Assembly: GCF_019203985.1 (NCBI RefSeq)
Contig: NZ_JAGSPD010000005.1
Coordinates: forward strand, 1 to 64,000
Direction: 5' to 3'
DNA from: Winogradskyella luteola
GTDB lineage: Bacteria > Bacteroidota > Bacteroidia > Flavobacteriales > Flavobacteriaceae
DNA length: 64,000 nucleotides
The notes below the pieces were generated by a model. That model made no database searches. It saw only the letters and a list, made by a program, of their open reading frames with translations, and was not told the origin of the DNA. A program made the position numbers and the translations under genes. Each line of letters opens with the position of its first letter. Within the stretch, counting starts at the first letter, position 1. Positions 7,331 through 29,963 of the stretch are shown one piece after another.

Positions 7331-8443
7331 TTACTGATTGTAAATACCAATAGTCAGCTCTCCTTTATCGTTCATCATCGCTCTATACATACCAGCAGTA
7401 TTAAATTCTGCAACCATATTACCGCTTTTATCTACAGCTACAACACCACCATCACCACCTAAATCTGCAACTTTACCTAAAACTATTTTAGCAGCTTCTT
7501 TTAAGCTTAATCCTTTATAATCCATCAAGGCAGAAATATCGTGTGCTACTTGGGCTCTAATAAAATATTCACCCCAACCAGTACTAGATACAGCACATGT
7601 GGTATTATTGGCATAGGTACCAGAACCTATAATCGGTGCGTCTCCTACTCTACCGTAACGTTTATTTGTCATACCACCAGTAGAAGTTCCTGCTGCAAGA
7701 TTTCCGTTTTTATCCAATGCAGCACAACCTACTGTTCCGAATTTAGAATTCTTAATATCGGCATCATAGAAATCTAAATATGCAGATTCTGTATCTATTT
7801 TACCTTCCTTTTTTGCTTCCCTTTCTTTAACACACTTAAGGGATTCTAAACGCCTATCTGTATGAAAATATAAAGGCTCAACAATGGTTAGACCTTGCTC
7901 TTTAGCAAAAGCTTCAGCACCTTTACCAGAGAGCATCACGTGCTTAGATTTTTCCATCACAGCTCTTGCTAAATTTATGGGATTTCTAACCGTTGTTGTA
8001 CCGGCAGATGCACCAGCATTTAACGTTTTTCCGTCCATAATTGATGCATCTAGCTCATTAGTCTCAGCATTCGTAAAAACTGCGCCTTTGCCAGCATTAA
8101 ACAAAGGTGAATCTTCCATAACGTTAATCGTTCTGGTAACAGCATCTAAACTTGTGCCTCCATTTTTTAAAATCTCATACCCTACTTTTATGGCTTCTTC
8201 TAATTTCGCCTTGTAAGCCGCTTCTTTTTCTGGTGTCATATGCTTCTTGAGAATTGTACCTGCTCCACCGTGGATAATAATAGCGAATTCTGGTTTTGAG
8301 TCTCTATTAAGCTCATCTAGTTTTTCTGAGTTAGTCTTATCTGTTCTTTTTATATTCTCAGGATTATCATCTGGATTTGGAAGTAATTCACTACAGGCTA
8401 AAAGTAAGAATAATATTACAATAAAAGGAATAATTTTCTTCAT
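7331..8443 (-). CDS. Isoaspartyl peptidase / L-asparaginase (Ntn hydrolase), lipoprotein
   Basis: A 370-residue protein with a lipoprotein signal (LLLAC, Cys17), so it is probably anchored facing the periplasm. The family signature IIIHGGAGT is near residue 56. The autocleavage site FGTVGCAA supplies the nucleophile Thr237, and GTSTGGMTNKRYGRVGD follows as in EcAIII/IaaA enzymes. These proteins self-cleave before the Thr and remove isoaspartyl residues from damaged peptides, or hydrolyse L-asparagine. The length of the mature protein is normal. It may form a loose surface protein-protection or peptide-turnover unit with the macroglobulin downstream, but the pairing is an inference from adjacency only. 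A lipid-anchored version fits the export-heavy style of Bacteroidota. Confidence 0.9.
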   Translation of the reverse strand: MKKIIPFIVILFLLLACSELLPNPDDNPENIKRTDKTNSEKLDELNRDSKPEFAIIIHGGAGTILKKHMTPEKEAAYKAKLEEAIKVGYEILKNGGTSLDAVTRTINVMEDSPLFNAGKGAVFTNAETNELDASIMDGKTLNAGASAGTTTVRNPINLARAVMEKSKHVMLSGKGAEAFAKEQGLTIVEPLYFHTDRRLESLKCVKEREAKKEGKIDTESAYLDFYDADIKNSKFGTVGCAALDKNGNLAAGTSTGGMTNKRYGRVGDAPIIGSGTYANNTTCAVSSTGWGEYFIRAQVAHDISALMDYKGLSLKEAAKIVLGKVADLGGDGGVVAVDKSGNMVAEFNTAGMYRAMMNDKGELTIGIYNQ

Positions 8444-15718: not shown

Positions 15719-16582
15719 TCAAGGCACTTTATGTCCTTGGCTAGCCACTAAAATCAGAAACCAATCCTCTAGTTCAAGCTCAATTTTTGAGGCTTCCATG
15801 GCTTGGGTCAGTCGTGTTGTATTTGTCGTACCAACCACGGGATGAATTCCAGCTGGATGCTTTAATATCCAAGATAATAGCAACTGGTCTTCAGTAGCCT
15901 TATATTTATCCATAAGTTCGCCAAGCTGTTTATGAATACGTCTGGTTTGTTCGTTATCTTCCCTAAAAACTGAACCCAAAGGCGACCATGCCATAGGCTT
16001 AATACCACAAGTTTTCATATAATCTAAGATACCATCGTGCATGGCAGAATGCTGCGTCAATGAAAATTCAATTTGGTTCACATCTATGTCCATACGCAAA
16101 CCAATCATCTCCATTTGAGATGGTGTAAAGTTAGATACACCAAAGTCCCTAATTTTCCCTTGCTTTTTTAAAACGGTTATGGCTTCAGCAATTTCTTCAG
16201 CCACCATTAAGGGACTTGGTCTGTGCAAAAGCAACAAATCCAAGTATTCAGTTTCAAGATTTTTTAAGGACGCTTCAACGGACCAAATAATATAATCTTT
16301 ACTGTAATCGTAATGCTTTACTTTGTTAGCTCTGTTATCGCATAAATACTGAATACCACATTTAGAAATCAGTTGCATATCTTTGCGCTTTATTCCAGAT
16401 TCTGTAAAAGCCTTTCCGAAATCGGCTTCCGTGGTATAAGCACCATAAATATCGGCATGGTCAAAGGTTGTGATATTATTGGAAATACAATGGTGCATTA
16501 AAGCGACCATTTCTTTTTTTGAGAGTTGTTTGCCCCAGCTTCCCCAGGTCATAGTACCTGCAATTAATCGAGAATATGTCAC
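15719..16582 (-). CDS. Aldo/keto reductase (YdhF-like)
   Basis: A 287-residue TIM-barrel oxidoreductase. The catalytic tetrad is visible: Asp41 and Tyr46 in TFDHADIYG, Lys74 in ISKCG, His120 in LLLLHRPSP. GVSNF (about 148-152) is the usual mid-family motif. The opening AGTMTWGSWG and overall length match the YdhF subgroup of NADPH-dependent reductases. The start is GTG at 16582, the only sensible start. The gene is divergent from the DUF4382 lipoprotein, with about 100 bp of shared upstream region. Confidence 0.88.
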   Translation of the reverse strand: MTYSRLIAGTMTWGSWGKQLSKKEMVALMHHCISNNITTFDHADIYGAYTTEADFGKAFTESGIKRKDMQLISKCGIQYLCDNRANKVKHYDYSKDYIIWSVEASLKNLETEYLDLLLLHRPSPLMVAEEIAEAITVLKKQGKIRDFGVSNFTPSQMEMIGLRMDIDVNQIEFSLTQHSAMHDGILDYMKTCGIKPMAWSPLGSVFREDNEQTRRIHKQLGELMDKYKATEDQLLLSWILKHPAGIHPVVGTTNTTRLTQAMEASKIELELEDWFLILVASQGHKVP

Positions 16583-16686
16583 TTTTTTTTCAGTTTATAT
16601 CGGTTTTTCTGCAATTGGTGTATAAAAATACTCAAAACATAATGAATAGTGTATTCTTGTTATGTAATTATTCCATAACCCAAATC

Positions 16687-17256
16687 ATGAAACATTTACA
16701 AACTACAAGAGCTCTAATTTATATACTCATTTTTTCTGTTTCTTTTGCTAGTTGTACCAAAGAGGACATCAGTAATTCTGACGACACTACTAATATTACA
16801 GTAAAATTAAAAAGTACAATAGGTCAGCTCGATAAGGTATTTATAGATATAGAAGATGTTCAGTTTAAAGTAAAAGAAGACGAAAACTCACCAAATGCTT
16901 GGATAAGCTTAAATACAATCAACCAAGGCACATACAACGCATGCCATTTAAATGAGGAATCTTCATTATTACTGGTAGATCATATAAAGATTGAATCAAC
17001 TTTTATCCATGAGATACGATTAGTGCTCGGAGACAATAATTTTATGGATGTTAACGGATTGCTTATGAGTTTGGACATATCAGATTTAGGCAATGCTACA
17101 CCATCAAATTTAATAAAGACAGAGCTTTTGGCAAACAAGACTTATGAGTTTGTAATAGATATGGATATCGATGAATCCATTCATTTTAATGAAGACCAAA
17201 ACATGATGGTTTTAAATCCAAAATTATATACCGCAATACGACAATTTGAATATTAA
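16687..17256 (+). CDS. DUF4382 domain lipoprotein
   Basis: I start this gene at the ATG at 16687 because it gives a clean lipoprotein signal (IFSVSFASC, Cys23). The longer in-frame form from 16576 would overlap the divergent reductase. The 189-residue product has the DUF4382 layout: ITVKLKSTIGQLDKVFIDIEDVQFK, a stretch ending in EIRLVLGDNN, and VIDMDIDESIHFN near the end. DUF4382 proteins are predicted periplasmic or surface beta-sandwich proteins of unknown role. It is a single-gene unit, closed by a terminator at 17281. Confidence 0.78.
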   Translation: MKHLQTTRALIYILIFSVSFASCTKEDISNSDDTTNITVKLKSTIGQLDKVFIDIEDVQFKVKEDENSPNAWISLNTINQGTYNACHLNEESSLLLVDHIKIESTFIHEIRLVLGDNNFMDVNGLLMSLDISDLGNATPSNLIKTELLANKTYEFVIDMDIDESIHFNEDQNMMVLNPKLYTAIRQFEY

Positions 17257-17414: not shown

Positions 17415-18416
17415 ATGGAAGAAACGAGTACAATTGACATTAAATCAATTAATGAAAAGATAGAAAAGGAAAGTGCATTTGTCGATCTTTTAACCTTAGA
17501 AATGAATAAGGTTATCGTTGGACAAAGGCATATGGTAGAACGCTTATTGATAGGCTTGCTTGGGCAAGGTCATATTTTATTGGAAGGTGTTCCTGGTCTA
17601 GCAAAGACCTTGGCAATTAATACCTTATCCCAAGCTATTGATGCTAGTTTTAGCAGAATTCAGTTTACACCAGATTTATTACCAGCAGATGTTGTTGGTA
17701 CATTAATATACAATATTAAAGAGAACGACTTTACCATTAAAAAAGGTCCAATCTTTGCTAACTTCGTTTTGGCAGATGAGATTAACAGAGCACCGGCCAA
17801 AGTACAATCTGCTTTATTGGAAGCCATGCAAGAAAAGCAGGTTACCATAGGTGATGAAACTTTTATCTTAGACAAACCATTCTTGGTAATGGCAACCCAA
17901 AATCCTGTTGAGCAAGAAGGAACGTATCCTTTACCTGAAGCTCAGATAGACCGTTTTATGCTAAAAACAGTTATTGACTATCCAAAGATCGACGAAGAGC
18001 AACTTATTGTTAGAGCCAACTTAAAAGGAGCATACGAAAAAGTAAATCCGGTGGTGTCTATAAAGCAAATTCTAAGTGCACAAAAGGCTGTTAGAGAAGT
18101 ATACATGGATGAGAAAATCGAAAAATATATTCTAGATATAATTTTCGCGACACGTTATCCTGAGAAATATAAGCTAGGGGATTTAAAAGCCTTAATTTCA
18201 TTTGGGGCTTCACCACGTGGAAGCATCAACTTGGCAACAGCTGCAAAATGTTATGCCTTTATTAAGCGAAGAGGCTATGTCATCCCTGAAGATGTTAGAG
18301 CTGTTGTGCACGATGTATTGCGCCACAGAATAGGTATTACTTACGAGGCCGAAGCGGAAAATGTCACTTCAGAAGATATTATCAATAAGATTGTAAACGA
18401 AATCGAAGTCCCTTAA
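17415..18416 (+). CDS. MoxR-family AAA+ ATPase
   Basis: A 333-residue MoxR-type AAA+ ATPase. Walker A GVPGLAKT is at residues 58-65, Walker B FVLADEINRAPAK near 119, sensor region MATQNPVEQEGTYPLPEAQIDRF near 160, and a C-terminal lid with ISFGASPRGS. MoxR ATPases act as chaperones for von Willebrand factor A (vWA) proteins, and here the DUF58 and two vWA genes follow. It is the first gene of the Bat (Bacteroides aerotolerance) operon. The 160-bp gap to the next gene is filled by a 7-nt periodic repeat (see 18459-18570). Confidence 0.95.
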   Translation: MEETSTIDIKSINEKIEKESAFVDLLTLEMNKVIVGQRHMVERLLIGLLGQGHILLEGVPGLAKTLAINTLSQAIDASFSRIQFTPDLLPADVVGTLIYNIKENDFTIKKGPIFANFVLADEINRAPAKVQSALLEAMQEKQVTIGDETFILDKPFLVMATQNPVEQEGTYPLPEAQIDRFMLKTVIDYPKIDEEQLIVRANLKGAYEKVNPVVSIKQILSAQKAVREVYMDEKIEKYILDIIFATRYPEKYKLGDLKALISFGASPRGSINLATAAKCYAFIKRRGYVIPEDVRAVVHDVLRHRIGITYEAEAENVTSEDIINKIVNEIEVP

Positions 18417-18575: not shown

Positions 18576-19442
18576 ATGGATACCAAAGAACTTCTAAAAA
18601 AAGTACGAAAAATAGAGATTAAGACACGTCGTTTGTCTGATCATATTTTTGGAGGAGAATACCACTCGACTTTCAAGGGGCGTGGTATGACCTTTTCCGA
18701 AGTTCGTCAATATCAGTTTGGTGATGATGTTAGAAATATTGACTGGAATGTTACCGCACGTTATAATGAACCTTACGTAAAAGTCTTTGAAGAAGAGCGC
18801 GAACTCACCATGATGCTCATGGCTGATGTGTCTGGCAGTAAACTCTTCGGAACCAAAAATCAATTTAAGGACGAAATTGTTACAGAAATTGCTGCGACCC
18901 TTGCCTTTTCTGCAACCCAAAATAATGATAAGATAGGGCTAATCTTATTTTCTGATGATATTGAACTTTACATACCGCCAAAAAAAGGACGCTCGCATGT
19001 ATTGAGAATTATTAGAGAATTACTAGAGTTTAAGCCTAAAAGCAAAAACACAGATATAGCTCAAGCACTTAAGTTTTTATCTAATGTGATGAAAAAGAAA
19101 GCCATTGTGTTTGTACTTTCCGATTTCATAGCAGACGACTATAAACAGACCTTAAAAATAGCTTCGGGAAGACATGACATTACGGGTATAAGAATATATG
19201 ATAAACACGAGGAGACAATTCCCAATGTAGGAATGGTGCAAATGGAAGATGAAGAAACGGGTGAGCTATTATTGGTAAATACGGCTTCAAAAAAAGTGAG
19301 ACAGAATTATGGTAAATTTTATAATGATAAAGTCGATTATTTTAAAGATAGTTTTACCAAATCGGGTGCAGGTACTATAGATTGCCGTGTGGACGAAAGC
19401 TACGTTAAAAAGCTGTTGGGCTATTTTAAACGAAGAGGATGA
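18576..19442 (+). CDS. DUF58 domain protein (vWA-like) of the Bat operon
   Basis: A 288-residue DUF58 protein. The signature GRGMTFSEVRQYQFGDDVRNIDWNVTAR spans about residues 30-60, split here as GRGMTFSEVR and GDDVRNIDWN. A vWA-like fold follows with MADVSGS near 86 carrying the MIDAS-type DxSxS. No membrane segment. In the Bat system DUF58 proteins are taken as MoxR substrates or partners. The preceding gap carries ACTG repeats and the following gap carries TGTAA repeats. Confidence 0.92.
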   Translation: MDTKELLKKVRKIEIKTRRLSDHIFGGEYHSTFKGRGMTFSEVRQYQFGDDVRNIDWNVTARYNEPYVKVFEEERELTMMLMADVSGSKLFGTKNQFKDEIVTEIAATLAFSATQNNDKIGLILFSDDIELYIPPKKGRSHVLRIIRELLEFKPKSKNTDIAQALKFLSNVMKKKAIVFVLSDFIADDYKQTLKIASGRHDITGIRIYDKHEETIPNVGMVQMEDEETGELLLVNTASKKVRQNYGKFYNDKVDYFKDSFTKSGAGTIDCRVDESYVKKLLGYFKRRG

Positions 19443-19479: not shown

Positions 19480-21210
19480 TTGAAAGACGAAATTATAAAT
19501 AAAGTTGAGGTTAAGAATAGGTTTCGAGTTGGCTCTAGGTTAAAGGCTCGTAATCTTCTATTGCTTTGCTTATACTTTACAATTTGTAATTCGTACTTGT
19601 ACAGCCAAGTTAAAACCGAAGTTGATACTACCAAAATCCGAATCGGAGAGCAAATCAATTATAAAATAAAAGTTGAAGCGGACTCTTCGTCTTTGGTTGT
19701 GTTTCCAGAGGGACAAACATTTATGCCTTTAGAAGCTGTTGAAGCTCTAGACATTGATACCACTAAAAAGGATTCTAAATTTTTATTATCTCGAATATAT
19801 AAACTCACTCAGTTTGACTCTGGTTCTTACACCATACCAAGACAAAAAATTATAATAGACGAAAAACCATTTTTTACAGATTCTCTTCAAGTAGACGTCA
19901 ATACCATAGAGGTTGATACCACCAAACAGAAACTCTATGATATTAAACCCATCATAGAGGTACAAAAAAGTGGGAGCAATTGGTGGAAATGGTTGTTAGC
20001 GATTATAGCAGCTATTGTATTGGTCGCATTTTTATTGTGGTGGTTTATTTGGAGGAAAAAACCATTGACCGAAGAAGAGGAAATTGCTTTATTACCACCT
20101 TATGATCGTGCAAAATTAGCACTACAAAAATTAGATGAAAGTCAGTATTTAATACGCTCCGAGGTAAAAGAATACTATTCCGAATTAACATTTATCATCA
20201 GAAAATATCTTGATGAAAAAGTATATGATCGTGCTTTAGAGAGCACAACAGATGAGTTAATTGCCAGATTACAATTGTTAAAAGAGGGGAATCAAGTGCA
20301 TTTAACTAAAGATACGATTCAAAATCTTCAATCCATATTAAAACGTGCCGATTTAGTAAAGTTTGCCAAATCAGCTCCAGATACAGCATTAGCTGAAATG
20401 GATAAAGCAACCATTACCAAGGAAGTAGATGCGGTAAAGGCCAGCTTGCCTGAGCCTACCGAGGAAGAAAAGCTATTAGACCAACAATACAAAGAAGCCC
20501 AAGAGCGCAAAAAGAAACGTAGAAAAATTGTCCTAACCGTTGCTATTTCTCTATTCTTAATCGTTGCCACAATTGTAGGTTTTGGTATTAAATATGGTTT
20601 TGGGTATGTAAAAGATACCATTGTTGGCCATGAGAGTAAGGAGTTGTTAGAAGGTGAATGGGTAGAGAGTGCTTACGGTTTTCCACCAATTTATATAGAA
20701 ACACCTAAAGTACTCAAGCGAACTGAAGTTGAAGTACCAAAAGAATACCAGGATAAAATAAAAACTTCTTTATTTAGGTATTTGGCATCAGAATCCGGAA
20801 TTGACATTCAGGTGAGTACAACGGCTTTTAACAATCAGTCAGAACAAGCAGGTGAACAACAACAAATGTCTGATGAGGAAAAAGCACAAGACCTGTTAAA
20901 AGCTTCAGAGAACTATTTAAAAAAGTTAGAAACTCAAGGGGCTCAAGATATTACTGTAAAAAGAGAGCAGTTTATTACTCCTAATGCTGCAGCGGGATTG
21001 AAGACTTTTGGCAGTATGAATTTTTCTTTAGATGAAAATAAATCAGAACTCGCTAATTATATTATCCTACTTTTTAGAGCAGAAAATATAAGACAACAAA
21101 TAGTTTTAGTATGGAGAGGTGAGGATTCTTATGCCGATGATATCATTGACAGAATATTAGATTCCATAGAACTAAACCCAGACGAACCAGTAGAAGAAGA
21201 CAAAGAATAA
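19480..21210 (+). CDS. Bat-operon membrane protein with DUF4381-like region
   Basis: A 576-residue protein with a signal sequence (about 1-43), a periplasmic beta-rich domain resembling the BatD N-terminal repeat (about 44-160), a transmembrane segment at 168-191, and a DUF4381-like cytosolic domain (about 205-330: PPYDRAKLALQKL, YYSELTFIIRKYLDEKVYDR, STTDELIARL). A second transmembrane segment is at 349-370, followed by a C-terminal domain of about 200 residues that I do not recognise. The only plausible start is TTG at 19480; no ATG lies before the signal peptide. The stop overlaps the batA start (TAATG). It probably belongs to the inner-membrane Bat complex. Confidence 0.8.
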   Translation: MKDEIINKVEVKNRFRVGSRLKARNLLLLCLYFTICNSYLYSQVKTEVDTTKIRIGEQINYKIKVEADSSSLVVFPEGQTFMPLEAVEALDIDTTKKDSKFLLSRIYKLTQFDSGSYTIPRQKIIIDEKPFFTDSLQVDVNTIEVDTTKQKLYDIKPIIEVQKSGSNWWKWLLAIIAAIVLVAFLLWWFIWRKKPLTEEEEIALLPPYDRAKLALQKLDESQYLIRSEVKEYYSELTFIIRKYLDEKVYDRALESTTDELIARLQLLKEGNQVHLTKDTIQNLQSILKRADLVKFAKSAPDTALAEMDKATITKEVDAVKASLPEPTEEEKLLDQQYKEAQERKKKRRKIVLTVAISLFLIVATIVGFGIKYGFGYVKDTIVGHESKELLEGEWVESAYGFPPIYIETPKVLKRTEVEVPKEYQDKIKTSLFRYLASESGIDIQVSTTAFNNQSEQAGEQQQMSDEEKAQDLLKASENYLKKLETQGAQDITVKREQFITPNAAAGLKTFGSMNFSLDENKSELANYIILLFRAENIRQQIVLVWRGEDSYADDIIDRILDSIELNPDEPVEEDKE

Positions 21211-22214: not shown

Positions 22215-22733
22215 ATGGGAAAAGGAGTTATCATACAAGCAAGCTCTAGAAGCGATGGGGATACAAATTGTATCGTTACGGTATTGAAAAAGAAGACCGA
22301 TTTTGACGTCATTGATCTAAACCAAAAGCATATTGGACATTTTGATTATAAGTTTAAGAACAAGAATGACGATTTTAAGCCACTCTTCTATGAGATTACT
22401 GAAAAATACAACACCATCATTTTTGCTACCCCAATATATTGGTATACGATGAGTGGTTTATTAAAAGTGTTTTTAGATAGAATTTCTGATTTTCTGTACG
22501 ATGAAAAGGATATTGGCCGACGATTAAGAAAAATGAAAATGGGTATTGTGAGTTCTAGTAATGAAAATATGGTGTTTGACGGGTTCGCTATGCCATTTGA
22601 AAAAAGTGCAGAATATTTAGGCATGAAGTATCTGGGGCATCTTCATACGTGGATACAAAAAGGAATTATTCCTAACGAAGTAATGCAATCGATAGAAGCA
22701 TATACAAACAAAAAGCTATTAGCTAATGTTTAG
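22215..22733 (+). CDS. NAD(P)H-dependent FMN reductase-like flavodoxin-fold protein
   Basis: A 172-residue cytosolic protein of the flavodoxin/NADPH-dependent FMN reductase superfamily. The phosphate-binding loop of FMN is visible as QASSRSDGDT (residues 8-17) and the isoalloxazine-side loop as ATPIYWYTMSG (71-81). It begins 0 bp after the batA stop and its last 8 bp overlap the batB start, so it is embedded in the Bat operon and very probably co-translated. Such a gene is not part of the batA-E set as I know it. An electron-transfer or quinone/flavin reductase role alongside an oxidative-stress system is an inference. No signal peptide. Confidence 0.82.
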   Translation: MGKGVIIQASSRSDGDTNCIVTVLKKKTDFDVIDLNQKHIGHFDYKFKNKNDDFKPLFYEITEKYNTIIFATPIYWYTMSGLLKVFLDRISDFLYDEKDIGRRLRKMKMGIVSSSNENMVFDGFAMPFEKSAEYLGMKYLGHLHTWIQKGIIPNEVMQSIEAYTNKKLLANV

Positions 22734-23830: not shown

Positions 23831-24652
23831 ATGAAGTTTCACTTAATAATATTTGTAGCATTAATAAGCTTTTCAGGCTTTTCGCAAGAGGATGACAAAG
23901 CACAATTAAAAGCAGATAAAAGAGCCACGAATCTGGTTTATAAAGCTAATGAATTGCTCGAAGAAGACAATTATATCGAAGCTGAGATGGAATATAGAAA
24001 AGCCATTTCCGAAGCTCCGAATAAAGCCGTTGGGGCTTATAATTTAGCACATTCATATTACAAAAAAGGAAGTTTTGATGAAGCTCTGTATAGAAGTCAG
24101 GAAGCAGCCAAAAATGCCACTACCAAGGATGAAAAACACAGAGCATATCATAACATTGGCAATATTTTAATGCAGAATGAATTGTGTAAGGAAGCTGTTG
24201 AAGCTTTTAAAAGTGCATTGAGAAATAATCCAACAGATGAAGAAACACGTTATAATTTTGCTTTAGCTAAAGAATGTGCGGAAAAGCAAAAAGACGGTGG
24301 TGGCGAAGATGATAAAAAAGACGAAAACAAGGACGAAGAAAAGGATAAGGAAAACGAAGAGAAGAAAGAAGACGAAAACAAAGACAAAAAGGACGAAGGA
24401 GATAAAGACAAAAAAGAAGGAGATAAAGAAGAAGACGAAAAAGGAAAACCTAAAGACGACAAAAAGGATGGTAAAGGAGACGATAAAGAAGATAAGAAAA
24501 ATCAGAAACCAAAACCAAAGCCTGGACAAATGTCTCCTCAGCAAATAAAAAATATTCTTGAGGCGATGCAAAATCAAGAACAGAAAGTACAAGAAAAAAT
24601 GAATGCTGAAAAGCAAAAAGGTGCTAAGGTAAAAACTGAAAAAGACTGGTAA
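23831..24652 (+). CDS. batC: BatC, exported TPR protein with charged low-complexity tail
   Basis: A 273-residue protein. It has a signal peptide (MKFHLIIFVALISFSGFSQ), three or so TPR units (about 30-150: NLVYKANELLEEDNYIEAE, AYNLAHSYYKKGSFDEAL, AYHNIGNILMQNELCKEAV), a Lys/Asp/Glu-only region of about 75 residues (about 153-228), and a C-terminal conserved segment PGQMSPQQIKNILEAMQNQE. This is the usual BatC design. The low-complexity DNA gives long false ORFs on other frames, which I disregard. The Bat TPR proteins probably mediate periplasmic interactions. Confidence 0.9.
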   Translation: MKFHLIIFVALISFSGFSQEDDKAQLKADKRATNLVYKANELLEEDNYIEAEMEYRKAISEAPNKAVGAYNLAHSYYKKGSFDEALYRSQEAAKNATTKDEKHRAYHNIGNILMQNELCKEAVEAFKSALRNNPTDEETRYNFALAKECAEKQKDGGGEDDKKDENKDEEKDKENEEKKEDENKDKKDEGDKDKKEGDKEEDEKGKPKDDKKDGKGDDKEDKKNQKPKPKPGQMSPQQIKNILEAMQNQEQKVQEKMNAEKQKGAKVKTEKDW

Positions 24653-24736: not shown

Positions 24737-26512
24737 ATGAAATTCACAAAACACATATCAATTCTATTTTTATTACTTGCTACAAGTATTGCTTCTGCTC
24801 AGGTTAAATTTGAAGCTAAGGTAAGCAAGAAGAAACTTGGTGTTAACGAACGTTTGCGTATAGATTTTGAGATGAATAAAGATGGAGATAATTTTGTACC
24901 GCCAAGCTTTAAGGATTTTACTGTTGTTGGCGGACCGAATACCTCTTTAATGAATTCTTATACTAATGGAAAAAAATCGTACTTAAAAACCTACTCTTAT
25001 TTTTTAGCACCTAAAAAGCGGGGAAAGTTAACTATTAAGCAAGCTACAATAGAAATTGATGGGGAAGTATACAAAACATTTCCAGTAACCGTTAATGTTA
25101 CTGCTGCTGTAGATCGACCAAACGCACCACCGGGAGCTTCAGAAATTGCTTCAGAGAATATTCATTTGGTTGCAGAAGTTTCTAAAACTGACCCTTACTT
25201 AAATGAAGGGTTTACAGTAGTTTATAAATTATACGTTTCACCAGAAACGGGAGTAAGCAACTGGCGAGAAAAGGACAATCCAAGGTATAATGATTTTTGG
25301 AGTCAGAATATAGAAATTAAAGGTCTTAATATTCAAAAAGGACTATATAAAGGTGAAGAGTATCGTTATGTTGTCCTAAGAAAAACGGTACTTTATCCTC
25401 AAAAAACAGGGAAATTAAAAATTGAGCCTTTGGTCTTAGATATTACTGTTGAAGTCCCAACAGGAAGAGCTGATATTTTTGGCCGTGCCATAATGACCAA
25501 GGTTCCTAAAACCGTAACAGCTGGTAGTAGAACCATAAATGTGAAACCATTACCCGAACAAGAAAAACCTTCAGACTTTAAAGGTGCCGTTGGTGATTTT
25601 TCATTTCAGGTAACAACTTCCAAAACAGAGTTGGATGCAACAGAATCGCTTCAAGCCAAAATTGAAGTTTCAGGAAAAGGAAATCTTAAGCTTTTTGAGC
25701 TTCCAAAACTAACCACTCCAAGTTCATTGGAAGTCTACGAGCCAGAACACCAAGAGAATGTGCGCACTAATTTAAACGGAATGCAAGGTCGTATATCAGA
25801 TACTTACACTATTGTACCTCAGTATAGGGGAAAATATCCGGTACCTCCTATTTCATTTTCTTATTTCGACTTAAAAACCGAAACTTACAAGCGTATTACC
25901 TCAGATGAGATTGTAATCAATGTTTTAGAAGGACCAACAGCTGCGGGTACCAATTCCAGTAACTCTACAACATCAGCTAATCCCAAACAAACTGTTAGAT
26001 CAAATACCAATGCATTTGCATTTATAAAAACAACAACAAACTGGTCTAGCATTAGGAGCACACCGTTTTTTAAATCTACCGGATTTTGGTCTCTGCTATT
26101 ACTGCCATTTTTGGCTATTCCGTTGGCAATCATAATTAGAAAGAAAAAAGATGAACGCGATGCTGATGTACAAGGTAATCGCATAAGAAGAGCAGATAAA
26201 CTGGCACGAAAATATTTAAGTGAAGCAAAGAAACATTTAGGGCAGAAAGAAGCATTCTACGAGTCTTTGGAGCGAGCACTTCATAATTATTTAAAGGCAA
26301 AGTTAAACATAGAAACCAGCGATTTTAACAAAGAAAAGATTGAAGCCTTACTTTTAGAACGACAAGTAGAAAATGATGTGATTTCAAACTTTATCTCAAT
26401 CTTAGAAAATTGTGAATTGGCACGTTATACACCTATAACCCAAGTTACCATGCAGAACGATTATGATAAGGCTGCAAAAACCATTTCACTAATCGATAAA
26501 CAAATAAAATAA
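24737..26512 (+). CDS. batD: BatD family protein (oxygen tolerance)
   Basis: A 591-residue protein. I choose the ATG at 24737, which gives the signal peptide MKFTKHISILFLLLATSIASAQ, over a GTG 12 bp upstream that lies in repeat-like sequence. A large periplasmic beta-sandwich region follows (about 22-440; typical BatD strands such as FEAKVSKKKLGVNERLRIDF and KSYLKTYSYFLAPKKRGKLT). A single transmembrane segment lies near 450-470 (WSLLLLPFLAIPLAIII), and then a cytosolic helical tail (KEAFYESLERALHNYLKAKLNIETSDF). The stop overlaps the batE start (TAATG). Expected to be anchored in the inner membrane with the other Bat proteins. Confidence 0.92.
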   Translation: MKFTKHISILFLLLATSIASAQVKFEAKVSKKKLGVNERLRIDFEMNKDGDNFVPPSFKDFTVVGGPNTSLMNSYTNGKKSYLKTYSYFLAPKKRGKLTIKQATIEIDGEVYKTFPVTVNVTAAVDRPNAPPGASEIASENIHLVAEVSKTDPYLNEGFTVVYKLYVSPETGVSNWREKDNPRYNDFWSQNIEIKGLNIQKGLYKGEEYRYVVLRKTVLYPQKTGKLKIEPLVLDITVEVPTGRADIFGRAIMTKVPKTVTAGSRTINVKPLPEQEKPSDFKGAVGDFSFQVTTSKTELDATESLQAKIEVSGKGNLKLFELPKLTTPSSLEVYEPEHQENVRTNLNGMQGRISDTYTIVPQYRGKYPVPPISFSYFDLKTETYKRITSDEIVINVLEGPTAAGTNSSNSTTSANPKQTVRSNTNAFAFIKTTTNWSSIRSTPFFKSTGFWSLLLLPFLAIPLAIIIRKKKDERDADVQGNRIRRADKLARKYLSEAKKHLGQKEAFYESLERALHNYLKAKLNIETSDFNKEKIEALLLERQVENDVISNFISILENCELARYTPITQVTMQNDYDKAAKTISLIDKQIK

Positions 26513-26973
26513 TGAGAATAATTATTTTTATGTTTTTGTGTTGTTTTAGTCTTTTTGGATTTTCCCAAAACGACCAACGTTTTGAGAATGCAAACGCTTT
26601 ATATAACGAAGGTAAATATGCTGAAGCTATTGATACTTATTTATCTATATTAGACTCTGGTGTACACTCTTCAGAATTGTACTATAATCTTGCAAATGCT
26701 AACTACAAGCTCAATAATATAGCTCCTAGTATTTTCTATTATGAAAAAGCGCTTCAACTCAACCCTGATGATGAAACCATAAAAGATAATCTGTCTTTTG
26801 CCCAAAAAATGACCATTGATGCCATTGATAAAGTTCCTGAGGTTGGTTTTTCAAAAATTATTAAGAATGTAGTAAATACTTTTAATGCCGATACTTGGGC
26901 AAAAATTGCTATTGGTGGTGTTTTTGTATTTGTTTTACTGTTCTTAATGTATCACTTCTCTTATACCTCATAA
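26512..26973 (+). CDS. batE: BatE, N-terminal part (TPR + first TM), ends at an in-frame stop
   Basis: A 153-codon reading frame with a signal peptide (MRIIIFMFLCCFSLFGFSQ), TPR units (about 24-100: ANALYNEGKYAEAIDTYLS, YYNLANANYKLNNIAPSI) and one transmembrane segment (about 131-148). It then meets TAA at 26971-26973. The next codons continue in the same frame with a second transmembrane helix and an SH3 domain, which is the normal C-terminal half of BatE. A nonsense change such as AAA to TAA would explain this. Whether this half is functional alone is unknown. Its start is coupled to batD. Confidence 0.85.
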   Translation: MRIIIFMFLCCFSLFGFSQNDQRFENANALYNEGKYAEAIDTYLSILDSGVHSSELYYNLANANYKLNNIAPSIFYYEKALQLNPDDETIKDNLSFAQKMTIDAIDKVPEVGFSKIIKNVVNTFNADTWAKIAIGGVFVFVLLFLMYHFSYTS

Positions 26974-27270
26974 AAAAAACGAATCGCTTTTGTTACAAGT
27001 GTTGCAGGTTTATTGTTGGCTTGCTTTTCTGTATCAATGGCATTTCAAAAAGAGCATTTAGAAAAAAAGGATAATCCAGCTATTGTATTTGCTCAAGAAA
27101 GTAGAGTGAAAAGCGACCCTAATAGAAACTCTGAAGAAGTGTTTAGACTGCACGAAGGCACGAAAGTTCAGGTTTTGGAAACTTACGAAGACTGGAACAA
27201 AATTATGCTTTCGGATAATTCAACAGGGTGGATTCCATCTCAAGATATAAAGCTCTTAAATACGTTTTAA
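26974..27270 (+). pseudogene. batE: BatE, C-terminal part (second TM + SH3), separated by the stop codon
   Basis: Directly after the TAA the frame continues KKRIAFVTSVAGLLLACF as a transmembrane segment. An SH3b-like domain follows: NPAIVFAQESRVKSDPNRNS, EEVFRLHEGTKVQVLETYED, and a tail WNKIMLSDNSTGWIPSQDIK. The frame is unbroken to 27270 and shows no other damage, so the lesion is recent, or the stop is bypassed, or the part is translated on its own from TTG 27013 or ATG 27037. There is no room for a separate promoter of obvious quality. Read through, the whole gene would be about 252 residues, a normal BatE length. Confidence 0.7.
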
Positions 27271-27325
27271 TTATTATTTAACAAAATCGTATATTGGTAA
27301 TGTTATATTTGTTGTAGCACAACCT

Positions 27326-27619
27326 ATGATTTTGAAAAAAAACTTAGCACTTTTTTTCATGATATTTTTCATGTTTATAATAAGTGCACCCATCATTATT
27401 GTATCAATGGACAATTCATTTGATACCACAATTTTCTTTGATATAAATGAAGAAGAAGAAAAAGAGAGTGTTAAACTTCTTTTTGAAACCGCATCTCTAG
27501 ATTTGGAAGATTTTTACACAGACCGCACCGATTTAAATTCAAATTCATATACATTTAAAGCCTATTCAAAACCACATCTCAATTTGGTTTTTCCTCCTCC
27601 CGAAAAAATTCTAGGCTAA
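27326..27619 (+). CDS. Small conserved membrane/secreted protein next to SulP
   Basis: A 97-residue protein with one N-terminal hydrophobic segment (about 8-27), an acidic stretch (NEEEEKES, about 41-48) and a proline-rich end LNLVFPPPEKILG. I recognise the layout as a short protein seen upstream of SulP-type transporters in Flavobacteriaceae, but no function is known to me. It lies 55 bp after the Bat operon and 87 bp before the transporter, so it could belong to either transcript. A small transporter-associated membrane peptide is a reasonable guess only. Confidence 0.6.
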   Translation: MILKKNLALFFMIFFMFIISAPIIIVSMDNSFDTTIFFDINEEEEKESVKLLFETASLDLEDFYTDRTDLNSNSYTFKAYSKPHLNLVFPPPEKILG

Positions 27620-27706
27620 CAGAAAATTCTCAAATCAGACCAATGAAGGTCTAATCTTTTAACTCTATTCAAGGGATTTTACCCTTAAAATTTATAATTT
27701 AACATT

Positions 27707-29305
27707 ATGTTCAAAAAATTAAAAAGTGATTTCCCAGCAAGTATTGTCGTATTCTTTGTTGCTCTACCGTTATGTCTAGGTATTGCATTAGCTAGTGGGG
27801 CACCATTATTTTCAGGCTTAATTGCTGGTATTATTGGTGGTATTGTTGTGGGGTTTCTCAGTGGTTCGCAAATTGGTGTCAGTGGACCAGCAGCTGGTTT
27901 GGCTGCAATTGTACTCACTGCAATTACAGCACTTGGCGGTTGGGAGAATTTTCTTGTGGCAGTGGTTCTAGGTGGTGCAATTCAGTTATTGTTTGGAGTT
28001 CTTAGATTAGGTATCATAGGATATTATTTTCCATCTTCTGTTATCAAAGGTATGCTTACGGGTATCGGTATAATTATTATTTTAAAGCAGATTCCTTATT
28101 TCTTCGGAATTGATAAAAACCCCGAAGGGGATTTCGCATTCCTACAAGTTGATGGAGAGAATACACTTACCGAGCTTTTGAAAACTTTAAATGCATTATT
28201 GAGTGGCAATTTTGATAAAGGCGCTACCATTATTGCACTTATAGCAATAACCATACTTATTTTATGGAGCAATGTATTGAGTAAAAAGGGTAAATTTTTT
28301 CAGCTTGTACAAGGCCCTTTGGTTGCTGTAGTTGCAGGTATTATTTACTTTTTCCTTACTAGAGATTCTAGTATGGCACTAAGTGTTGACCATTTGGTTT
28401 CCGTTCCTGTACCAGAAAGCTTATCTGATGTAAAATCTTTATTAGCCTTCCCAAATTTTGAAGTCATTACCAGGGGAGATGTAATACTAACAGGATTTAC
28501 CATTGCTTTAGTTGCTTCTTTAGAAACACTATTATGTGTTGAAGCTACAGACAAATTAGATCCTCATAAGCGTGTAACACCAACCAATCGCGAATTGTTG
28601 GCACAAGGTACTGGTAATATGATATCAGGATTTATTGGTGGGCTTCCAATAACACAGGTTATCGTTCGTAGTTCGGCGAATATCCAATCTGGCGGACAGA
28701 CCAAAGCGAGTGCCATAATACATGGGTTTTTATTACTCATTTCAGTTCTTACAATACCGCACATCCTCAACTATATTCCATTATCAGTCTTGGCAGCGAT
28801 ATTATTTATCGTAGGATATAAGCTCGCAAAACCTTCGACTTTTAAAGCCATGTATAATGGAGGATGGATGCAATTTGTTCCGTTTATTGTAACTGTGCTA
28901 GGAATTGTGTTTACAGATCTATTAAAAGGGATCGGACTCGGATTGGCCGTTGGAATTTTTATTGTACTTTTTAGAAGTTTTCAAAACTCTCATTTCCTTC
29001 ACAAAGAAGGAGAAGATATTGATGACGGAAAAATTAAAATGACTTTGGCAGAAGAGGTCACTTTTTTTAATAAAGGTGCTATTTTAAAAGAGCTAGATCG
29101 CCTTCCTGAAAATTCTTATTTTGAATTGGATGTTAGAAAAACCCGATACCTCGATAATGACATCATTGAAATTCTTGATGATTTTGCCATAAAGGCTAAA
29201 GAGCGAAACATTGACATAAAGATATATTCAGAAAGAGGTACAGTGGAAAACCCAGAGAGTTTTATTGAGTTTTTTAAACTGAGACCTAAAAACGGAAAAT
29301 CATAA
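27707..29305 (+). CDS. SulP-family anion transporter with STAS domain
   Basis: A 532-residue inner-membrane protein with 10 or more hydrophobic segments in residues 5-415 and a C-terminal STAS domain (about 430-530: EEVTFFNKGAILKEL, YFELDVRKTRYLDNDIIEIL). The signature GLPITQVIVRSSANIQSGGQTK (about 311-332; first part GLPITQVIVR) is the SulP core. The family carries sulfate, bicarbonate or dicarboxylates. A beta-carbonic anhydrase begins 28 bp downstream, which points to bicarbonate as the substrate, as in BicA-like systems. That is inference from context. Confidence 0.92.
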   Translation: MFKKLKSDFPASIVVFFVALPLCLGIALASGAPLFSGLIAGIIGGIVVGFLSGSQIGVSGPAAGLAAIVLTAITALGGWENFLVAVVLGGAIQLLFGVLRLGIIGYYFPSSVIKGMLTGIGIIIILKQIPYFFGIDKNPEGDFAFLQVDGENTLTELLKTLNALLSGNFDKGATIIALIAITILILWSNVLSKKGKFFQLVQGPLVAVVAGIIYFFLTRDSSMALSVDHLVSVPVPESLSDVKSLLAFPNFEVITRGDVILTGFTIALVASLETLLCVEATDKLDPHKRVTPTNRELLAQGTGNMISGFIGGLPITQVIVRSSANIQSGGQTKASAIIHGFLLLISVLTIPHILNYIPLSVLAAILFIVGYKLAKPSTFKAMYNGGWMQFVPFIVTVLGIVFTDLLKGIGLGLAVGIFIVLFRSFQNSHFLHKEGEDIDDGKIKMTLAEEVTFFNKGAILKELDRLPENSYFELDVRKTRYLDNDIIEILDDFAIKAKERNIDIKIYSERGTVENPESFIEFFKLRPKNGKS

Positions 29306-29333
29306 AAATTAGACATAACTAAAAAATATATAA

Positions 29334-29963
29334 ATGAAAACCACAGCGATAACCAAAGACGTACAAAGTGAATTAACACCAAATAGTGTATTACAAGATT
29401 TACTGGAAGGCAATAAACGATTTGTAAACGGAAATCCTGAAGGTGCAGATAATGCTGCACTTGTGAGCCAAACTACAAGCGGACAGTATCCAAAAGCTGT
29501 CATCTTATCTTGCATAGATTCTCGCGTACCTGTAGAAACCGTATTAGACCAAGCTATTGGAGACATCTTTGTTGCCAGAGTAGCTGGCAATTTTGAGAAT
29601 GCAGATATTTTAGGAAGCCTAGAATACTCGTGTAAAGTTGCAGGAAGCAAATTGGTTTTGGTTTTAGGCCATGAAGCTTGTGGTGCTGTAAAAGCGGCTT
29701 GTGATGGCGTAGAATTAGGGAATATAACGCATTTATTAAGCAATATTTTACCAGCAGTACATCAGTCTGCAGAAGAAGTAGAAGGTAAAGCTAATTCTTC
29801 TAACAAAGCTTTCGTTGCAAAAACTGTAGAAAATAATGTTAGGCTTACCATGAATCGTATTCGTATTAAAAGTCCTATTTTAAAGGAGATGGAAGACAAT
29901 GGCGAGATTTCTATCGTAGGAGGTGTCTATAGTTTACATACGGGTAAAGTAGAAATGCTGTAA
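29334..29963 (+). CDS. Beta-class carbonic anhydrase
   Basis: A 209-residue enzyme that interconverts CO2 and bicarbonate. The zinc ligands are Cys60 (ILSCIDSR), His113 and Cys116 (GHEACG), with the Asp62-Arg64 dyad intact. No obvious export signal, so probably cytosolic. Coupled to the SulP transporter (28-bp gap), it likely handles imported or respiratory bicarbonate. The 3' flank (29964-30156) holds only degenerate repeats. Confidence 0.93.
   Translation: MKTTAITKDVQSELTPNSVLQDLLEGNKRFVNGNPEGADNAALVSQTTSGQYPKAVILSCIDSRVPVETVLDQAIGDIFVARVAGNFENADILGSLEYSCKVAGSKLVLVLGHEACGAVKAACDGVELGNITHLLSNILPAVHQSAEEVEGKANSSNKAFVAKTVENNVRLTMNRIRIKSPILKEMEDNGEISIVGGVYSLHTGKVEML

Follow-up and report, generated by a model that had tools for sequence, protein, structure and literature searches.

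A lone in-frame stop codon at the helical hairpin of batE in Winogradskyella luteola, found in none of the relatives examined

The bat operon and the frame of batE

The window, a stretch of 64,000 nucleotides of DNA from the marine bacterium Winogradskyella luteola, carries on its forward strand the genes of a conserved moxR-bat stress operon. These are moxR (starting at 17415), a DUF58 gene identified by Pfam (starting at 18576), a gene without a Pfam match (19480-21210), batA (starting at 21210), an oxidoreductase gene (22215-22733), batB (starting at 22726), batC (starting at 23831) and batD, which ends at 26512 where batE begins. The names moxR (MoxR-type AAA domain), batA and batB (VWA/BatA domains) and batC (TPR domain) were assigned from domains together with gene order, and batD from Pfam BatD. 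All of these frames are open. The expectation that the remaining Bat genes would be intact was borne out, for moxR as well, both by the frames and by comparison with the nearest relative, the uncultured Winogradskyella sp. isolate 408-3Z (locus L033, with genome G058 taken as the same genome). The split gene stands in the place of batE, directly after batD and downstream of moxR, the DUF58 gene, batA, batB and batC.

Several genes in and around the operon differ from the nearest relative. The 576-residue frame at 19480-21210, between the DUF58 gene and batA, is 71% identical to its counterpart in G058 as against 96-97% for its neighbors, and has no Pfam match. The gene at 22215-22733 encodes a 172-residue protein of flavodoxin-like or NADPH-dependent FMN reductase type (Pfam Flavodoxin_2 5e-13, FMN_red 5e-12) and sits exactly between batA and batB, which abut in G058 with no such gene between them. 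It was matched at E 1e-15 or better in five of the 68 genus genomes, the window's own counted; in one of these (G030) a homolog of 67% identity occupies the same batA-batB slot, and in the other three neither batA nor batB was found in the approximately 3.5 kb examined around it. The bat operon appears to have captured a redox gene here. Following batE, a forward-strand gene for 97 residues (27326-27619) without Pfam or NCBIfam match is 69% identical in G058, with a dN/dS of 0.17, the highest among the genes compared. Farther on, G058 has an extra 620-residue frame (contig C16, 31697-33559) between the SulP-type and carbonic anhydrase genes, which is missing at 29291-29334 of the window; its best match in the window, at 26% identity, is the SulP-type transporter gene at 27707-29305.

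The frame of batE opens with ATG at 26512 and runs for 153 codons to a TAA at 26971-26973 (codon 154). This 5′ half (26512-26973, forward strand) encodes a signal-like N-terminus, TPR repeats (Pfam TPR_1 3.7e-11, TPR_2 4.2e-11) and a first hydrophobic helix at approximately residues 126-149. Past the TAA the sequence goes on with AAA AAA CGA in the unchanged frame, and this forward-strand continuation (26974-27270) encodes a second hydrophobic helix and an SH3 domain (Pfam SH3_3, E 2.9e-8) in 98 codons before the natural stop at 27268-27270. Frame translation of 26974-27270 revealed no second stop and no change of frame before the natural end. With NCBIfam, both halves gave only matches below the curated cut-offs. 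The two halves jointly align over residues 1-252 to the one-piece BatE of 252 residues in the nearest relative, at 85% identity and with one stop, so that the split gene is not a chance pairing of neighboring frames. The original prediction of a batE cut by a lone in-frame stop with both halves intact thus agrees with the coordinates, the frame and the TPR and SH3 domains alike, and its count of six As after the stop was correct, the A-run being eight bases long when the two As of the TAA are included.

An AlphaFold model of an intact relative's protein (33-row alignment, mean pLDDT 77.2, pTM 0.42) has two helices, at residues 126-149 and 153-186, followed by strands between residues 188 and 248. 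The stop thus falls where the chain turns from one hydrophobic helix to the other. Judging from hydrophobicity and the positive-inside rule, both helices would cross the membrane, with the turn, which adjoins a Lys-Lys-Arg stretch, on the cytoplasmic side.

Distribution, altered codon and constraint

On BatE sequence, the closest relatives of the window belong to Winogradskyella, and the identity to the BatE of isolate 408-3Z is 86% for the N-terminal half and 84% for the C-terminal half. A search of the genus found the SH3 half in all 68 genomes, the window's own included. In 65 of them it lies inside an open frame of 251-271 codons, and only in the window's genome is there a 98-codon SH3 frame made by a stop. 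The short frames of two genomes (G039 and G045), taken up as possible further splits, are cut by contig ends only and are open across the junction, as are all 67 other genus genomes; similarly, the internal stops marked in G004 and G005 proved to be the natural end of the gene, two residues early. In a search of the family the SH3 half was matched in 394 of 395 genomes, and among the matches listed all but the window's own lie in frames of 249-291 codons; some rows of the family and class searches carry similar marks of an internal stop, with frame lengths that are those of whole genes. Since TPR and SH3 parts share one frame across the other genus genomes and the family matches listed, the SH3 half is normally kept. 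A class-wide search matched the SH3 half in 57 of 89 genomes, a figure that says little about BatE because this half was the only query. Separate genes for the two halves occur in none of the 67 other genus genomes and in none of the family matches listed, and an old two-gene split was rejected since no relative examined has two genes. The alignment with the batE of relatives, which the original prediction had named as a check, used a collection of 80 loci overlapping in species with the genus and family search set. Two of these run off a contig end, and the 78 complete genes all read through, leaving the stop private to the window among these loci. As far as the genomes were examined, the split would appear to be private to the strain or species.

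At the column of the stop, the 78 relatives have Ser in 38 cases, Thr in 13, Leu in 12, Val and Ile in four each and Gly in three, with Tyr, Trp, Ala and Asn once each. Neither Lys nor a stop occurs there in any of the 78. The proposal that the stop arose by an AAA-to-TAA change within the A-run consequently fails, as the column holds Ser, Thr or another residue but never Lys, and a lysine codon turned stop was rejected as the origin. The stop is best explained, from the aligned sequences, as one substitution in a codon of the Ser, Thr or other kind. The column varies freely, so the residue at this position is not critical.

The downstream half still looks like a sequence under purifying selection. 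Measured against the nearest relative, dN/dS is 0.089 for the N-terminal half (153 codons) and 0.096 for the C-terminal half (98 codons), with dS of 0.73 and 1.12, respectively; the test of dN/dS suggested earlier for the SH3 half, run here against the nearest relative, thus returned the same constraint as in the half before the stop. Of the columns at least 90% conserved in the 78 relatives, the window keeps 39/39 in the C-terminal half and 61/64 in the N-terminal half, very close to the 39/39 and 60/64 kept by the intact nearest relative, and all 15 invariant columns of the C-terminal half are retained. When 44 loci (L034-L079, titled Winogradskyella in nearly all cases) were used to polarise the amino acid changes, three fell on the window's side and 13 on that of the nearest relative in the N-terminal half (five unclear), and six on each in the C-terminal half (four unclear). 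Had the C-terminal half been free of selection over the whole branch, more than 100 changes would be expected by a hand estimate that multiplies about 230 nonsynonymous sites by half of dS. The polarised counts, treated by hand as Poisson, allow neutral decay for no more than approximately 6% of the branch, a rough figure because dS is near saturation. Overall, batE evolves more rapidly than its operon neighbors (dN/dS 0.09-0.10 vs. 0.010-0.035 from moxR to batD), and its two halves are alike in this.

Origin of the stop codon

These observations are probably accounted for by a recent, private nonsense substitution in batE, carried by the strain or species as far as examined. The original prediction had left the choice between a very recent loss and a sequencing error, and both are in keeping with a split found in no other genome examined, a conserved C-terminal half and the lack of a second lesion. 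Under a nonsense substitution, batE would yield a protein of 153 residues consisting of the periplasmic TPR domain and one membrane helix and ending at the cytoplasmic turn, without useful translation of the second helix and SH3 domain. With the stop at the hairpin turn, the stub has probably retained its ability to insert in the membrane. It may keep part of the role of BatE, which could explain the survival of the allele, at least in culture. Certain observations sit less easily with a nonsense allele. The site of the stop is open in the 67 other genus genomes, suggesting that this is not a loss the genus readily undergoes, and the stop falls within the few codons where a split would be least harmful, a mild hint of something beyond bad luck. 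The faster change of the whole of batE relative to its operon also counts against a recent lesion, although the halves are alike.

A sequencing or assembly error, in which batE would be intact in the organism and one base of the draft wrong, is unlikely, although a lone wrong base is possible. It would leave, as is seen here, a single lesion shared with no other genome examined and without decay downstream, and the stop adjoins an A-run in a genome (3,527,247 bases) available as a draft in 50 contigs. In that genome the 20-base sequence surrounding the stop is unique. The two halves lie in one frame, so that a substitution is needed; a homopolymer length error of the usual kind would not produce the lesion, since a one-base change in the length of the A-run would break the shared frame. 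The quality of the assembly speaks against an error too, with a completeness of 99.92% and no other clear in-frame break in the collinear 36 kb or in 258 kb elsewhere. Collinearity with the nearest relative's contig extends over the first 36.2 kb of the window, and among approximately 30 collinear genes, as counted by our own reading, only batE has an internal stop; the remaining collinear rows that contain a stop represent frames that overlap real genes. A possible second broken gene at 16519-17253 was rejected, the stop lying upstream of the ATG of that gene.

A scan based on composition covered 322,337 bases, made up of the window and 20 stretches outside it (258 kb), and was confined to in-frame stops with approximately 50 codons or more on each side, frameshifts being outside its scope. 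Of 93 same-frame pairs tested it flagged 15, with batE the only clear case. Nine of the 15 have an in-frame ATG at most 10 codons past the stop and were set aside, by eye and without comparison to relatives, as neighboring genes and one antisense frame, and four more were rejected as broken genes because they lie opposite a long open frame. A weak candidate at position 7401 of stretch L129 (241 then 93 codons, with a weak coding score and no Pfam match downstream) counts to some degree against the lesion in batE being an isolated one. Tested at 1180 mid-gene codons chosen at random in the training genes, the local criterion of the scan is passed at 1143, an optimistic figure. The collinearity and the scan together make a generally error-rich assembly unlikely.

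Taken jointly, a functional split and readthrough are quite improbable. A functional split, in which translation would end at 26971 and start anew a short way downstream, the second helix and SH3 domain rejoining the first half in the membrane as a separate protein, is by itself very unlikely. The position of the stop at the modeled hairpin turn, which makes each half a topologically sound piece, and a C-terminal half constrained like the N-terminal half would both suit such an arrangement. So would an excess of promoter-like sites, of which 26400-27400 holds 11 where 5.0 (sd 1.9) are expected, scored with the E. coli-type consensus, which is not that of Bacteroidota. The only terminator-like hairpin found is weak and lies at 27004-27024, at the start of the second half, and no relative examined has two genes. 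To our knowledge, Bacteroidota lack Shine-Dalgarno sequences and A-rich stretches serve in start selection. An A-rich upstream sequence is described as promoting initiation in Flavobacterium johnsoniae in the available text of PMC6847099. The A-rich sequence before ATC 26983 scores above 77% of the genome's start regions, a percentile due to the A-run and read from a profile built on the first ATGs of 121 long frames in the genome, which are not all necessarily true starts and were scored with the profile built from themselves. This A-rich stretch is the coding sequence for Lys-Lys-Arg and is present in intact relatives too. ATC is not among the usual starts, being a very rare start codon. The re-initiation earlier envisaged at TTG 27013 or ATG 27037 finds no footing, as these codons and TTG 27016 score at the 1st percentile of start regions, below most internal ATGs, and all lie inside the modeled second helix. 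TTG 27013 is codon 168 and ATG 27037 codon 176, within helix 153-186, so that much of the helix would be lost. Just past the stop a good context was found only at the unusual ATC 26983, with no usable start in a start-like context. The particular version in which the second half is made within the species by termination-coupled re-initiation at this AUC, nine bases past the stop and driven by the A-rich sequence, with the halves reassembling in the membrane, is highly improbable.

Readthrough giving a small amount of full-length BatE is scarcely credible even with an open and conserved frame past the stop, TAA being generally held to be the least leaky stop codon, the RNA around it folding no better than shuffles (z -0.52), 26000-28000 giving no Rfam family at threshold and no suppressor being among the six tRNA genes found in 12 of the 20 stretches sampled, which represent a small part of the genome.

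Comparison with BatE and with recent nonsense pseudogenes

The nonsense allele looks like an ordinary one rather than a new two-protein arrangement. According to the available text of PMC3557215, Bat proteins were found via aerotolerance in Bacteroides fragilis and are proposed to form a periplasmic complex, and Leptospira biflexa without them was unaffected in growth rate and morphology, with no protection against oxidative stress demonstrable (PMC3557215). Given the Leptospira biflexa result, loss of the SH3 half would be plausible if the strain is a cultured one. If the stop is real, the strain is a natural test of BatE without its SH3 half. The case serves mostly as a caution that a premature stop between two intact halves is the signature of a fresh nonsense allele, or of a wrong base.

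The gene resembles the BatE of the moxR-bat (Bacteroides aerotolerance) operon of Bacteroidota in its place after batD, its TPR half, its two-helix hairpin and its SH3 half. It differs from the BatE of the relatives examined, which is encoded in one frame, in that the open frame joining the halves is interrupted by the stop at codon 154. In having a single in-frame stop with no other lesion, absent from the relatives examined, it is like recent nonsense pseudogenes, which likewise show one substitution-type lesion between conserved flanks in one genome only.
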